A stretch of 64,000 nt of DNA from the NCBI RefSeq assembly GCF_022869165.1, contig NZ_CP094929.1:992001-1056000 (forward strand), written 5' to 3'. Within the stretch, counting starts at the first letter, position 1, and every line of letters starts with the position of its first letter. Below are positions 30,391 through 51,071 of this stretch, piece by piece. The notes beneath the pieces are model-generated. The model did not search any database and had not been told where the DNA came from. It saw only the letters and a program-made list of their open reading frames with translations. The translations under genes were made by a program, and so were the position numbers. This stretch comes from Sphaerochaeta associata. GTDB taxonomy: Bacteria; Spirochaetota; Spirochaetia; Sphaerochaetales; Sphaerochaetaceae.

Positions 30391-31447
30391 GATCTGGATA
30401 GGTTCTTATTTCACCGTCTACGGTCCTGAAGGACCACAGACCGCAACCAGACTGCTCAGAAAGGTATCCTTGTATCAAGGGTACCTTTCCTCCACCTTGT
30501 GGGAGGTCGATGGCATACAGGGGCATGGCAAGCCCGCTCAGACGCTTTCTAAGCTCCGCCTCGATGGCAAGTCCTTCCTTCAGTGGAACCCGAAAGTGAG
30601 CCGTCCCCGATACCAGATCGCCTTGGAAGAGGTAATAGGGCTTGATGCGGTTGAAGACCAAGCTGTTGCACAGCTCTTCGAGCGTGGGGACATCGTCATT
30701 CACTCCCTTGAGGAGCACAGTCTGGTTCATGGCGGGAATCCCTGCATCCACGAACAAACGAATCGCTTCAATTGCCTGTGTTGTCAACTCGCGTGGATGG
30801 TTGAATTGTGTCATCAGATAAAACGGGGCGCTGTTGAACTGTTTGAGCATGGTGATCAGTTCGGCTGTGATCCGCATCGGATACGATGCAGGCATCCTTG
30901 TACAGAGGCGGATGATCAAGTCGGGCCGCTTGTCTCGGAATGCTCTGATCATAGCCTCGAGTGCTTGGTTCGAGAGAGTGAGAACATCGCCTCCGGTGAA
31001 TAATATCTCCTTGACTTCAGGGTGAGCCTGAACGTAGGCAGCCGCCAGTCCTATCTGCTTCTCGTCTGCCGGACCCTGGAAGGTGCCGGTGAAACGCCTT
31101 CGGAAACAGTGGCGGCAGTGCAAAGGGCAGACATCGGTGGTCAAAAAGGCGACCCTGCTCTGATACCGGTGTATGAGGCGTTCGGTGACACTATGGTCGA
31201 CTTCCGAAAGTGGATCGATATGTTCTTCGGCCAGCACCTGCTGTTCGCATTTGGTTGGAACAACCTGACGGCGGATGGGGTCAAGAGGGTCGTTCTTGTC
31301 GATAAGGTTGAAAAAATAGAAGGGAATTTTCAGAGGCAGGATGTTTGTATCATCAGTATCAAACATCTTCTCATCCTCGGTGAGCACCAGGTGGCGTCTC
31401 AGCTCCTCCTTGGATGTGATGATGGTTGGATCTTCTCGTTTTTGCAT
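30266..31447 (-). CDS. epmB: EF-P (R)-beta-lysylation enzyme EpmB (lysine 2,3-aminomutase family)
   Basis: This radical-SAM, PLP-dependent enzyme (393 residues) turns L-alpha-lysine into (R)-beta-lysine for loading onto EF-P. The cluster motif CPLHCRHCFRR and the KamA-type EILFTGGDVLTLSN, NHPRELT and FNRIKPYYLFQGD are present. I favour EpmB over a catabolic KamA because efp and epmA are in this window and no lysine-fermentation genes are. The ATG at 31447 has only a weak AGGG 13 nt upstream; a TTG at 31495 is possible. Conserved sequence ends near SFRTVDGEIRTYPD. The last 37-40 residues lie antisense to the neighbouring gene and look non-conserved. Confidence 0.82.
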   Translation of the reverse strand: MQKREDPTIITSKEELRRHLVLTEDEKMFDTDDTNILPLKIPFYFFNLIDKNDPLDPIRRQVVPTKCEQQVLAEEHIDPLSEVDHSVTERLIHRYQSRVAFLTTDVCPLHCRHCFRRRFTGTFQGPADEKQIGLAAAYVQAHPEVKEILFTGGDVLTLSNQALEAMIRAFRDKRPDLIIRLCTRMPASYPMRITAELITMLKQFNSAPFYLMTQFNHPRELTTQAIEAIRLFVDAGIPAMNQTVLLKGVNDDVPTLEELCNSLVFNRIKPYYLFQGDLVSGTAHFRVPLKEGLAIEAELRKRLSGLAMPLYAIDLPQGGGKVPLIQGYLSEQSGCGLWSFRTVDGEIRTYPDPKEQSSSEHPRWLWSESPDAASHTLQESGTQSSPSPRRQEP

Positions 31448-46287: not shown

Positions 46288-46851
46288 TCAGCTATTCACT
46301 CGTTCAAGGTATTCCTTGGTTTCCGTGTTCACCCGGATTTTCTCACCCTGCTTGATGAAAATGGGAACGCGTACCTTCAAGCCGGTTTCGGTGGTGATGT
46401 ACTTGGTTGCTCCCTGCACGGTGTCGCCCTTGACGGCTTCCTCGGCTTCTGCTACCAGGAAGACCACCTTCGGGGGGACTTGGATTTCCAACAACTGGGC
46501 TTCCCAAAAAGTGCAGCGGTAGGTCTCTCCGTCCTTCATCAGGTACTGGTAGTCGGGGAAGTTGCCCATCGGCACTTCAATCTGCTCGAAGTTGTCGGTC
46601 AACATCAGGTGAAAGTTCTCCCCATCGTTGTACAGATACTGGCAGTCCCTATCGACTACGGTGATATCCTCGGCGTTGTCCTGGCTCTTCATCGTTTCTT
46701 GGAGCGTCTGACCGGTGGAAGGGCTCTTCAGCTTCAGGCGAACGAAGGCGGAACCTTTTCCGGGGTTTACGAATTCACGGTCGACAACAACAAACGGCTG
46801 TCCTTTGATCAACAAGGCGGTTCCCTTATCGATTTGACCTGCTTTAATCAT
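46288..46851 (-). CDS. efp: Elongation factor P
   Basis: EF-P (187 residues) relieves ribosome stalling at consecutive prolines. The three beta-barrel layout is clear, with MIKAGQIDKGTALLIKGQPF at the N-terminus. The modified loop is NPGKGSAF, with Lys32 as the residue that EpmA would beta-lysylate (Lys34 in E. coli). I choose ATG 46851, where GAGG has 8-nt spacing; the ATG at 46857 would be only 2 nt from it. It follows epmA by 18 nt in the same operon, which supports lysylation rather than another EF-P modification. Confidence 0.95.
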   Translation of the reverse strand: MIKAGQIDKGTALLIKGQPFVVVDREFVNPGKGSAFVRLKLKSPSTGQTLQETMKSQDNAEDITVVDRDCQYLYNDGENFHLMLTDNFEQIEVPMGNFPDYQYLMKDGETYRCTFWEAQLLEIQVPPKVVFLVAEAEEAVKGDTVQGATKYITTETGLKVRVPIFIKQGEKIRVNTETKEYLERVNS

Positions 46852-46869
46852 GCTCATTACCTCGTATAT

Positions 46870-47862
46870 TTACAAATTGCGCGTATTGCCACTCTTCAGC
46901 ATACCAGAAAGGGGAAAAAGAATCACCCCCTGCAGGTCGGTTTTTCCCATCAGCAGCATCTGCAGCCGATCAAGCCCGATGGCAACACCCGAGCAAGGGG
47001 GCATGGAGGAGAAAACCGAGGCCAAATCAGGGTCTATATCAGGAATTACCGTCCCGCTTTCCTCACGTTTTTGTACCAACTTTGCATACTCGTCCCGATA
47101 GTAGTTCTCAATCGTTGTCTGGTCGCGGTCCTCATCGTAACAGTTAGCCACCTCGACTCCTTTCACGTAGAGTTCCCACCGCCGCCTGTATGCGCCTTCC
47201 TGTTTGGCAAGGCATTCGATCTGCTTGGGGTAACGCTCCAGTACAAGCGGACGGTCCTGAGGAAGGTTGGGTTCGACAAAGGTCAGAAAAATTCGGTTGA
47301 ACGTCTCCTCCCAGCTCTCCGGTTCATCAGGAACGCTCAGGCCCAGCCTGCGTGCTTCATCGGCGAGGGAGGATTGTTTCTGGTGTTTGTCCAAGTCCAC
47401 TCCGGCATAGGTTTGCATCGCTTGCGCCACCGTGAGGCGGGCGAACGGGGGGCACAGGTACTCTGCAGCATCGTCGGTAAGCAGGGATGCGAACAGCTCT
47501 TCGGTGATTCGAATCGAATCCTCATCATCGGCGCCCACCGTATAATATTCCAACATGGAGAACTCCGGGTTGTGGATATGCCCGAGCTGCTCGCTGTTGC
47601 GGAAACAGTGGCTGATCTGATAGATGCTTCCCCAGCCCTGGGCGATGAGCTGCTTCATGAATATTTCAGGGGAGGGAACCAGATACAACTCGACAGAGGG
47701 GAGAAAGGGATTTTGAAACCTGGTGGCGAAGTTCTCGATGGTGGACTCGGGAATGAGGGAGGTTGAGAGTATCGGTGTGTCGACTTCGGTGTAATCGCGT
47801 CCGTCGAAAAAGGTGCGGATGGTACGGTACATGGCCGAGCGAAATTGTGCTGCTGCTTTCAT
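46870..47862 (-). CDS. epmA: EF-P-(R)-beta-lysine ligase EpmA
   Basis: This 330-residue class II lysyl-tRNA-synthetase paralogue attaches (R)-beta-lysine to EF-P. It lacks the anticodon-binding domain and starts directly in the catalytic core. Motif 2 is ISHCFRNSEQLGHIHNPEFS and motif 3 is GVAIGLDRLQM. E. coli EpmA is 325 residues, which fits. I choose ATG 47862 because it starts the conserved part; it has no Shine-Dalgarno, and a good -10 (TATGAT) ends 6 nt upstream, so the mRNA should be leaderless. efp is the next gene. mnmE is divergent with a shared -35. Confidence 0.92.
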   Translation of the reverse strand: MKAAAQFRSAMYRTIRTFFDGRDYTEVDTPILSTSLIPESTIENFATRFQNPFLPSVELYLVPSPEIFMKQLIAQGWGSIYQISHCFRNSEQLGHIHNPEFSMLEYYTVGADDEDSIRITEELFASLLTDDAAEYLCPPFARLTVAQAMQTYAGVDLDKHQKQSSLADEARRLGLSVPDEPESWEETFNRIFLTFVEPNLPQDRPLVLERYPKQIECLAKQEGAYRRRWELYVKGVEVANCYDEDRDQTTIENYYRDEYAKLVQKREESGTVIPDIDPDLASVFSSMPPCSGVAIGLDRLQMLLMGKTDLQGVILFPLSGMLKSGNTRNL

Positions 47863-47868
47863 GAGCGA

Positions 47869-47898
47869 ATCATAGCCAAAGCTCTGCTTGTGTTGCAA
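47869..47898 (-). promoter_or_regulatory. epmA promoter (leaderless), sharing its -35 with mnmE
   Basis: Minus strand: -35 TTGCAA (47898-47893), 18-nt spacer, -10 TATGAT (47874-47869), then 6 nt to the ATG at 47862. TTGCAA is its own reverse complement and is also the mnmE -35. Confidence 0.6.
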
Positions 47899-47922
47899 GT
47901 GTCGCTGTCGCTGCAGTATACT
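47893..47922 (+). promoter_or_regulatory. mnmE promoter (leaderless), sharing its -35 with epmA
   Basis: -35 TTGCAA (47893-47898), 18-nt spacer, -10 TATACT (47917-47922), then 7 nt to the ATG at 47930. The first transcribed base should be at or next to the A of the ATG. Confidence 0.65.
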
Positions 47923-47929
47923 CGCCAGT

Positions 47930-49258
47930 ATGAAGCGATACGTTACTGACGACATCATCTATGCCCTTGCAACGGCTTGGGCGCAGAGTGCCTTGGCGGT
48001 GGTCAGGGTCAGCGGGGATGGGTGCAGAATCCTCCTTTCTACTCGGTTCTCCCGGCCCAAAGCCCTCCTGGATGCTGCTAATGCAACCTTGGTGCACGGC
48101 TATTTGATCGATGAGAACGGCTTGGCAATCGATGAGGTTGTTGCTGCTGTATATACTGACGGCCACGGCTATACAAAAGAAGAGTCCGTGGAACTCACCT
48201 GCCATGGTTCACTTGCTGTGATCAAGGAAATTCTGGCGCTTTTCAATCGTTTGGGCATGCGCAGCGCGGAAGGCGGAGAGTTCACTTTTCGTGCCTTTTT
48301 GCATGGCAGGCTGGACCTGACCCAGGCCGAAGCGGTACAGGAACTGGTCTCCAGCCAGAGCCAACGCTCACGCTCCCTTGCGTTGGGCCGATTGGAAGGG
48401 AGCCTTCGCAGCCGGATATCCGCCATGAAGGAACAGTTGCTGGGTATTGTTGCAGCAGTTGAAGTACAGCTCGATTATGCAGAGGATGAGTTGGATGAAT
48501 TTGTCTTTCCCCGATTGCAGTTGGTCGACCTCATCAAGCAAATCAAGGATTTGTCGGGTACCTACCAAATCGGCCGATTGTACCGCACAGGTGCCCGCAT
48601 TGTCCTGGCTGGTTCCACCAATGCCGGCAAGAGTTCACTGTTCAATCTCTTGTTGAAACAGGAACGGTCCATCGTCAGCCCGGTTCGCGGTACGACGCGG
48701 GACTACATCGAGGCAGACATGGATGTACATGGGATTCCGATTCGCTTGTACGATACTGCAGGATTGCGGGAAAGCGATGACGCCATCGAAAACGAAGGGA
48801 TTAGAAGGACCGAGCGTCTTATCGGACAGGCTGACTTGGTGGTGTATCTGGTGGACAGCACCGAGCTCGGCCATGTTCCCGAGGAGGATGAGCGAACCTT
48901 GGTTGTCTACAACAAGAGCGACTTGGTCAAACCTCCCATGGGCAGGATGGCCATCAGCGCCCAGACCGGCGAGGGGGTTCTTTCCTTGTTGGATGAGATT
49001 GCCAAACGCTTGGCCAAGGGCAGTGTGGCAACCGGCGATGAACAGGTGGTTATTGAATCAGAGCGGCAGTACACCTTGCTTGAGAATGCAGCCCAGGCTT
49101 TACAGCGCTCCTTGGTCCTTGTCGATCAGGATATCCCGCTGGATATTACCGCAGTGGAATTGGGCGAAGCGCTACAGAATCTCGGGGAGCTGACCGGTGA
49201 AGTGACACCTGCCGATATTCTGCAAAAGATTTTCAGCGGATTTTGTGTAGGAAAATAA
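47930..49258 (+). CDS. mnmE: tRNA uridine-5-carboxymethylaminomethyl(34) GTPase MnmE
   Basis: This 442-residue GTPase works with MnmG to modify the wobble uridine of several tRNAs. Parts: an N-terminal tetrahydrofolate-binding domain (DDIIYALATAWAQSALAVVRVSG), a helical region, and an inserted G domain with GSTNAGKSS, the G2 loop RGTTRD, DTAGLR and NKSD. The C-terminal motif is FCVGK, the conserved C(I/V/L)GK end. ATG 47930 matches the family start. An upstream frame extension crosses the promoter and is Cys-rich noise. There is no Shine-Dalgarno. mnmG begins 1 nt after the stop. Confidence 0.95.
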   Translation: MKRYVTDDIIYALATAWAQSALAVVRVSGDGCRILLSTRFSRPKALLDAANATLVHGYLIDENGLAIDEVVAAVYTDGHGYTKEESVELTCHGSLAVIKEILALFNRLGMRSAEGGEFTFRAFLHGRLDLTQAEAVQELVSSQSQRSRSLALGRLEGSLRSRISAMKEQLLGIVAAVEVQLDYAEDELDEFVFPRLQLVDLIKQIKDLSGTYQIGRLYRTGARIVLAGSTNAGKSSLFNLLLKQERSIVSPVRGTTRDYIEADMDVHGIPIRLYDTAGLRESDDAIENEGIRRTERLIGQADLVVYLVDSTELGHVPEEDERTLVVYNKSDLVKPPMGRMAISAQTGEGVLSLLDEIAKRLAKGSVATGDEQVVIESERQYTLLENAAQALQRSLVLVDQDIPLDITAVELGEALQNLGELTGEVTPADILQKIFSGFCVGK

Positions 49259-49259
49259 T

Positions 49260-51071
49260 ATGGATTATGATGCAATAGTTGTGGGGGGCGGCCACGCCGG
49301 AATCGAGGCGTGCCTCGCCCTTTCAAGAATAGGATTTTCGACTCTTTTAATCACCCAGAACCTCGATACCATCGGCAAGCTCTCATGCAATCCTGCAATC
49401 GGGGGATTAAGCAAGGGCAATTTGGTGCGGGAGGTTGATGCCCTCGGCGGTGAGATGGCGCACCTGATCGATCACTCCATGATCCAGTATCGCATTCTCA
49501 ACCGCAGACGCGGTCCTGCCGTGCAGGCTCCCCGAGCCCAAGCGGACAAGTTCACCTATGCACGCCTTGCAAAGGAGACGCTGGAAGCCCAGTCCAACCT
49601 TGCCTTGTTCATGGATACGGTGGTGGACATTCTTCTCGATGACCACAATGCCCTGGTAGGGGTGGTGACCGAGAGACGGCATACCATTACCTGCAAGGTG
49701 ATGGTCCTGACCACCGGTACCTTCATGGAAGGCCGTATTTTCATCGGCGAGTACGATGCTTCAAACGGACGGCTGGATGAGCCGGCCGCCATCGGGTTGG
49801 GCAGTGCCCTGCGCAAAAAGGGCTTTCCGGTAGGGAGACTGAAAACAGGCACCCCTGCACGGGTCAGGCGCTCGAGCCTGGACTTTGACAGAATGGAAAT
49901 CCAGGACGGGGAAGAGACGATGATGCCCTTCAGTTTCGACTATGACAGCGTCGATCGGCCGGCTCTCCCCTGCTATATCACCTGGACCAATGATAATACG
50001 CACCGGATCATCAGGGAGAACATCCATCGTTCCCCGTTGTACGGCGGAAAGATCGTCGGCAAGGGACCGCGATACTGCCCTTCGATCGAGGACAAGGTGG
50101 TCAGGTTCCCAGACCGTGAACGCCACCAGATATTTGTCGAACCAGAGGGTGTGGGGACTGAAGAGATGTATCTGAACGGAATCTCCTCCTCACTTCCTGA
50201 GGATGTGCAGCATGCATTCATCCACAGTATTGCAGGGCTTGAACACGCCCAGATCATGCGTCCTGCATACGCGGTCGAGTACGATTTCATCGATCCCCAA
50301 GCACTTTTCCCCTCACTGGAGAGCAAGCTGGTGGAGAACCTGTTCATCGCCGGGCAGACCAACGGCACCAGCGGGTACGAGGAGGCGGCATGCCAGGGCC
50401 TGATGGCCGGCATCAATGCGGCGCAGAAGCTCAAGGGTGAAAAACCCTTGGTGCTCAGTCGCAACGAGGCTTATACCGGTGTTCTCATCGATGACTTGGT
50501 CACGATGGGGACGCAGGAACCCTATCGCATGTTTACCAGCCGTGCTGAATATCGCTTGAACCTACGCCACGACAGCTGTGACCAGCGGCTCACGGCCAAA
50601 GGGTTCTCCGTCGGGTTGCAGAAGCAGGAAGCACTGGATCGCCTGAAGGATAAACTGTCAAGAATGGATGCAGTGAAAGACCTGCTTCGTGCGCGAAGGT
50701 ACGAGGAAAAGAGCGCCCTTCAGGCTTTGAAAATGCCCGAGGTGACCATTGAGGATGTCTCCAAGCGGATTCCTGAATTACAAGCATTTGAAGAACCGAT
50801 TCTCTACCAGGTTGAGCTCGATGTGAAATACGAAGGGTATATCAACCGCCAGGATCGGCAGATCAGCAGGTTTGAGAAGTTGGAGAGCCTTCTGATCGAC
50901 GAGAAGTTGGACTGGGATGCCATCGAAGGGTTGAGTGCCGAGGGCAAGGAGAAACTGAAGAAGGTCCGCCCGCTTTCAGTTGGACAGGCGACAAGAATCA
51001 ACGGGGTGCGCAACAGCGACATTGCAGTCCTTATCGTACATCTCGACCGGGGAGGGAGACATGGCAGGTAA
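49260..51071 (+). CDS. mnmG: tRNA uridine modification FAD enzyme MnmG (GidA)
   Basis: This 603-residue FAD protein is the MnmE partner. The FAD motif VVGGGHAGIEACLALSRIG opens the protein, followed by SCNPAIGGLSKGNLVREVDALGG and the RGPAVQAPRAQAD segment with conserved residues. The C-terminal helical domain binds MnmE. AGGAAAA lies before the ATG. The end overlaps rsmG by 11 nt, the classic gidA-gidB order often near the replication origin. No dnaA or origin repeats are visible in this window. Confidence 0.95.
   Translation: MDYDAIVVGGGHAGIEACLALSRIGFSTLLITQNLDTIGKLSCNPAIGGLSKGNLVREVDALGGEMAHLIDHSMIQYRILNRRRGPAVQAPRAQADKFTYARLAKETLEAQSNLALFMDTVVDILLDDHNALVGVVTERRHTITCKVMVLTTGTFMEGRIFIGEYDASNGRLDEPAAIGLGSALRKKGFPVGRLKTGTPARVRRSSLDFDRMEIQDGEETMMPFSFDYDSVDRPALPCYITWTNDNTHRIIRENIHRSPLYGGKIVGKGPRYCPSIEDKVVRFPDRERHQIFVEPEGVGTEEMYLNGISSSLPEDVQHAFIHSIAGLEHAQIMRPAYAVEYDFIDPQALFPSLESKLVENLFIAGQTNGTSGYEEAACQGLMAGINAAQKLKGEKPLVLSRNEAYTGVLIDDLVTMGTQEPYRMFTSRAEYRLNLRHDSCDQRLTAKGFSVGLQKQEALDRLKDKLSRMDAVKDLLRARRYEEKSALQALKMPEVTIEDVSKRIPELQAFEEPILYQVELDVKYEGYINRQDRQISRFEKLESLLIDEKLDWDAIEGLSAEGKEKLKKVRPLSVGQATRINGVRNSDIAVLIVHLDRGGRHGR

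Follow-up and report, generated by a model that had tools for sequence, protein, structure and literature searches.

The genes epmA and mnmE of Sphaerochaeta associata, which diverge from a 67-bp gap, are probably transcribed from two back-to-back sigma70-type promoters that pivot on one palindromic -35 hexamer, TTGCAA; both mRNAs would start leaderless, and the shared hexamer would have arisen by compaction. The gap was analysed within a stretch of 64,000 nucleotides (the window; positions 992,001 to 1,056,000 of contig NZ_CP094929.1). Promoter activity and the start points of both genes were inferred from the sequence.

The gap between epmA and mnmE

From the epmA ATG on the minus strand to the mnmE ATG on the plus strand, the gap reads CAT-6-ATCATA-18-TTGCAA-18-TATACT-7-ATG (spacers in nt). 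Inspection of the sequence showed that the hexamers, spacers and ATG distances listed in the original prediction, and the absence of Shine-Dalgarno sequences (SD), were exact to the base: an SD was sought ahead of the epmA and mnmE ATGs of the window and found at neither. The features are as follows.

46288..46857, minus strand: efp (elongation factor P), after epmA; TIGR00038, 205 bits
46870..47862, minus strand: epmA; best family TIGR00462, 254 bits, under the 287-bit cut-off
47862-47860, minus strand: epmA ATG; predicted leaderless start at 47862
47869..47874, minus strand: TATGAT, predicted epmA -10, separated by 18 nt from the -35 and by 6 nt from the ATG
47891-47899, no strand: TGTTGCAAG, invariant 9-bp block TG-TTGCAA-G
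47893..47898, no strand: TTGCAA, core of this block and predicted palindromic -35 for both directions, from sequence and conservation (TTGCAA in 25/25 Sphaerochaeta loci)
47917..47922, plus strand: TATACT, predicted mnmE -10, separated by 18 nt from the -35 and by 7 nt from the ATG
47930-47932, plus strand: mnmE ATG; predicted leaderless start at 47930
47930..49258, plus strand: mnmE; TIGR00450, 360 bits, cut-off 253
49260..51071, plus strand: mnmG, downstream of mnmE and in the same direction; TIGR00136, 826 bits

The efp gene is adjacent to epmA in relatives too and is presumed to be the second gene of the epmA transcript; its start has an SD-like GAGGT (GAGGTAATGAGCATG) of its own. On the other side, rsmG follows mnmG, giving the order mnmE-mnmG-rsmG. 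A match to the EpmB (lysine 2,3-aminomutase-like) family was observed on the minus strand of the window at about 30485-31426 (231 bits, under the cut-off), and a better one elsewhere in the genome (G000:C1:2991303-2992262; 265 bits, also under the cut-off). A phage comparison gave no match.

Each predicted promoter agrees with the sigma70-type consensus at 9 of the 12 hexamer positions (-35 plus -10), and the 18-nt spacing of both lies inside the sigma70-type range of 16-18 nt; the fit is at the level of sequence, and conservation agrees with it. Against the two-promoter account, TTGCAA shares only 4 of 6 positions with TTGACA, and the spacer is one off the favoured 17 nt. Consensus match alone did not lift the promoters significantly above chance, as a plain scan of 3.1 kb found 4 promoters versus 2.3 +/- 1.5 in shuffled sequence. 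In random gaps of matching composition, the probability that one side has a TTG -35 together with a -10 placed 5-8 nt from its ATG was about 1.4e-4, and both sides together occurred in 0 of 400,000. The full two-sided pattern had a single occurrence in a search of the whole 3.55-Mb genome, where it is listed on both strands owing to its near-symmetry. This genome-wide uniqueness, together with conservation in 25 of 25 congeneric loci, confirmed the layout as real.

A strict scan for the whole pattern in 84,980 species gave 11 matches, eight in Sphaerochaeta or its order and three elsewhere; as exact 18/18 spacers and 6/7 distances were required, and the window's own or near genomes may be missing, this is an undercount. 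The three outside matches (Bacteroidia, Clostridia and Anaerobutyricum) were judged to be due to chance, since the frame flanking them on one side or both has 1-14 codons. Background counts were taken from an 864-kb sample of the genome, made up of the window and two blocks of 400 kb. The automatic search of its 116 divergent pairs for shared -35s found none; it was uninformative, since longest-ORF starts missed the window's own pair.

Conservation in Sphaerochaeta and variation outside the genus

In all 25 Sphaerochaeta loci that have the two genes, TTGCAA lies at offset 0 for both promoters, the spacers measure 17-18 nt and the -10-to-ATG distances 6-7 nt, so that the conserved symmetric spacing expected by the original prediction holds across the genus. 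These loci represent 19 distinct sequences with MnmE identities down to 61%. Column statistics were taken from an anchored alignment of the gaps, which measure 66 nt in six loci and 68 nt in one. The only columns invariant in the 19 distinct gaps were TA..AT of the epmA -10, TGTTGCAAG, and TATA.T of the mnmE -10. Pairwise identity across the genus was 100% in the -35, 98% in the mnmE -10 versus 45% in the mnmE-side spacer, and 90% in the epmA -10 versus 55% in the epmA-side spacer; the start regions between -10 and ATG drifted like the spacers (34-50%). The TG and G flanking TTGCAA were invariant as well, three bases beyond what a pure -35 needs. In two loci (L020, L024) epmA has additional N-terminal residues, yet its first ATG still lies 6 nt from the -10.

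Other genera often keep the divergent epmA-mnmE pair, usually with separate -35s; that they manage without a common hexamer weighs against the two-promoter account. The offset between the two -35s outside Sphaerochaeta ranged from -17 to +92, the largest separation being that of L044. Sister genera had offsets of +17 or +20, with TTTACA and TGGACA as -35s. Ten of their loci (L036-L040, L043, L045, L051-L053) retain TGTAAAG ... ATGGACAC, two separate -35s whose spacing is fixed at 17 or 20 bp while the bases between them vary. In L049, L050, L060, L061 and L063 the promoters were interleaved, with an offset of -17 and a gap of 47-52 nt. Each -10 of the interleaved loci abuts the -35 of the opposite promoter (e.g. 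ATTGTA-TTGCCC ... TTTCAA-TACTAT), a tighter overlap than in the window. Exact sharing of the -35 was also found in L033 and L069, and weakly in L075, which has a poor epmA -10 (GAACCT).

Conservation of the hexamer wherever the gene pair is kept, on which the original prediction had been made to depend, was found within Sphaerochaeta (25/25) and not outside the genus, where the poor conservation named in that prediction as evidence against it was observed. In the EpmA tree, all Sphaerochaeta fall into one well-supported clade, and the label 'shared' needs four changes. The simplest account places a single origin of -35 sharing at the base of Sphaerochaeta, with apparently two or three further origins elsewhere.

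Leaderless starts and the predicted mechanism

The epmA and mnmE mRNAs are likely to be leaderless. The original prediction that both look so is borne out as likely by the missing SDs and by a -10-to-ATG distance of 6-8 nt that is kept across most of the family, and the leaderless reading of both genes is well supported at the level of predicted features. In Sphaerochaeta, all 18 distinct mnmE loci have the -10 at 6-7 nt. A strong epmA -10 lies at this distance in 16 of 19 distinct loci, and the remainder have a weaker box (e.g. TAAGAT) at the same position. SD-like 4-mers were found upstream of epmA in 0/19 and upstream of mnmE in 2/18 distinct congeneric sequences. In the other genera of the family, the commonest distance of a strong -10 is 7-8 nt for mnmE (22/44 loci) and 6 nt for epmA (12/32 loci), each with scattered counts elsewhere, and SDs are few. 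In several other families of the class, in which epmA was not detected beside mnmE, some mnmE genes again have a -10 at 6-9 nt (e.g. L132, L133, L142, L146, L153); for these five together with L143 and L150 the distance is about 7-8 nt. The leaderless state of mnmE may be ancient in spirochaetes.

SD-less genes of the 864-kb sample had 24 strong -10s at 5-8 nt, where the counts at other distances predict about 5; the surplus amounts to roughly 3% of the genes examined. This fits the 1.8-6.9% published for Spirochaetes in which leaderless genes occur (PMC3160421) and is consistent with the mapping of many leaderless mRNAs in Leptospira (PMC5243855). TTG-type -35s were enriched 17 nt from strong -10s, and TTGCAA occurred 16-18 nt from strong -10s four times versus 1.1 expected, with small counts.

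The shared palindromic -35 of the original prediction, serving two divergent promoters of predicted sigma70 type, is supported by conservation and layout. According to the proposed mechanism, sigma region 4 would read TTGCAA on either strand, and polymerase would load facing either mnmE-mnmG-rsmG or epmA-efp, never both together. With the -10s 6-7 nt before the ATGs, the mRNAs would begin at the start codons, or within a base or so of them, and would both be translated without a leader. Leaderless starts would pin both -10s and so leave limited ways for the gap to change; the shared hexamer would have arisen by compaction of two promoters pinned in this manner. As TTG in both directions on the same six bases must be TTGCAA, the palindrome is explained without a special factor. 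Purifying selection, presumably the cause of the invariance, would then hold the hexamer, because a change would harm both genes.

Alternative readings and known promoters

It is quite unlikely that a transcription factor controls both genes from TGTTGCAAG as its operator, with the -35 overlap being secondary. The palindromic core would suit an operator, as would the nine invariant bases, of which the three in excess of a pure -35 count against the two-promoter account. The flanks are asymmetric, however, both -10s keep to a distance of 17-18 nt, as they must from a -35, and the sister genera carry recognisable -35s (TTTACA, TGGACA) in its place. Furthermore, TGTTGCAAG was not enriched between genes (2/20 occurrences versus 11% non-coding DNA in the 864-kb sample), which argues against a regulon operator. 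Very improbable is the reading that both genes are leadered, from farther promoters or alternative starts, and that the near -10s are incidental. Both frames are indeed open for some distance upstream in the window, and a TTG start would be possible for mnmE at 47888, but almost all loci are without an SD at either start, the position of the -10 relative to the ATG is maintained across the family, and the upstream sequence drifts as non-coding DNA does. In L021, L022 and L030 an in-frame stop lies 12 nt upstream of the epmA ATG, inside the -10, and makes this ATG the first possible start there.

The original prediction had also concluded from the shared hexamer that mutual exclusion would tie EF-P modification to tRNA wobble modification. 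From the geometry it follows that two polymerases could not occupy the predicted -35 at once, and this part stands; a regulatory link between the two modifications is not supported, as the overlap is not maintained in other genera that have the pair. That the hexamer is a selected switch, with epmA-efp and mnmE-mnmG expressed at each other's expense, is unlikely. A single hexamer read both ways cannot hold two polymerases, and overlapping layouts have turned up repeatedly: Sphaerochaeta and two or three further lineages have a common -35, and still others have interleaved promoters. Elsewhere in the family, however, the pair persists with -35s 17-92 bp apart, and an activator site to tip the balance is not evident. 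Basal transcription from E. coli bidirectional promoters is, moreover, too low for competition, which appears once one direction is strengthened (PMC12825309). It is similarly unlikely that the orientation of polymerase at one hexamer partitions transcription between epmA-efp and mnmE-mnmG and that the overlap was selected for this coupling. Compaction of two promoters is the simpler account.

Bidirectional promoters described for E. coli and other prokaryotes share a pseudo-symmetric -10 (Warman, Grainger and co-workers; PMC12825309, PMC10268837), and their divergent starts lie 7-25 bp apart (PMC10268837). The epmA-mnmE pair resembles them in having one symmetric core element at which loading could occur either way, one orientation barring the other. 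It differs in that the predicted common element is the -35 and the -10s are separate, and in that the predicted starts, at about 47862 and 47930, are some 68 bp apart. The pair is therefore not placed in the shared -10 class, judging from its predicted elements, and may work similarly.

TA-led leaderless genes were reported in 6 of 18 Spirochaetes genomes, with an average of 3.9% (Zheng et al. 2011, PMC3160421). Like these, both genes have TANNNT about 12 nt before the start codon (12-13 nt from the first T to the start) and no SD at either start. Whereas that work and the Leptospira study, in which leaderless mRNAs were mapped (PMC5243855), rest on a genome-wide signal and on mapped 5' ends, respectively, the present case consists of a single pair of orthologues with family-wide conservation, known from sequence; a map of transcription start sites for Sphaerochaeta was sought and not found. 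Closely spaced divergent promoters of M. tuberculosis (e.g. prpD and its regulator; PMC3898074) likewise combine divergent neighbours with leaderless transcripts; the relevant passage describes no shared -35, and one gene of the pair there is a regulator, unlike epmA and mnmE.

A described case of a -35 common to divergent promoters was not found in the open-licence literature, which was searchable without the term '-35'. Within the limits of this search, the predicted shared -35 with its genus-wide conservation appears to be new. Described bidirectional promoters share the -10, whereas Sphaerochaeta would offer a clean genus-wide case of a shared -35, coupled to two predicted leaderless genes. 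Since leaderless starts would pin the -10s, the family would form a natural series, with separate, shared and interleaved -35s between one and the same two genes, and what polymerase competition costs could be measured on it directly.
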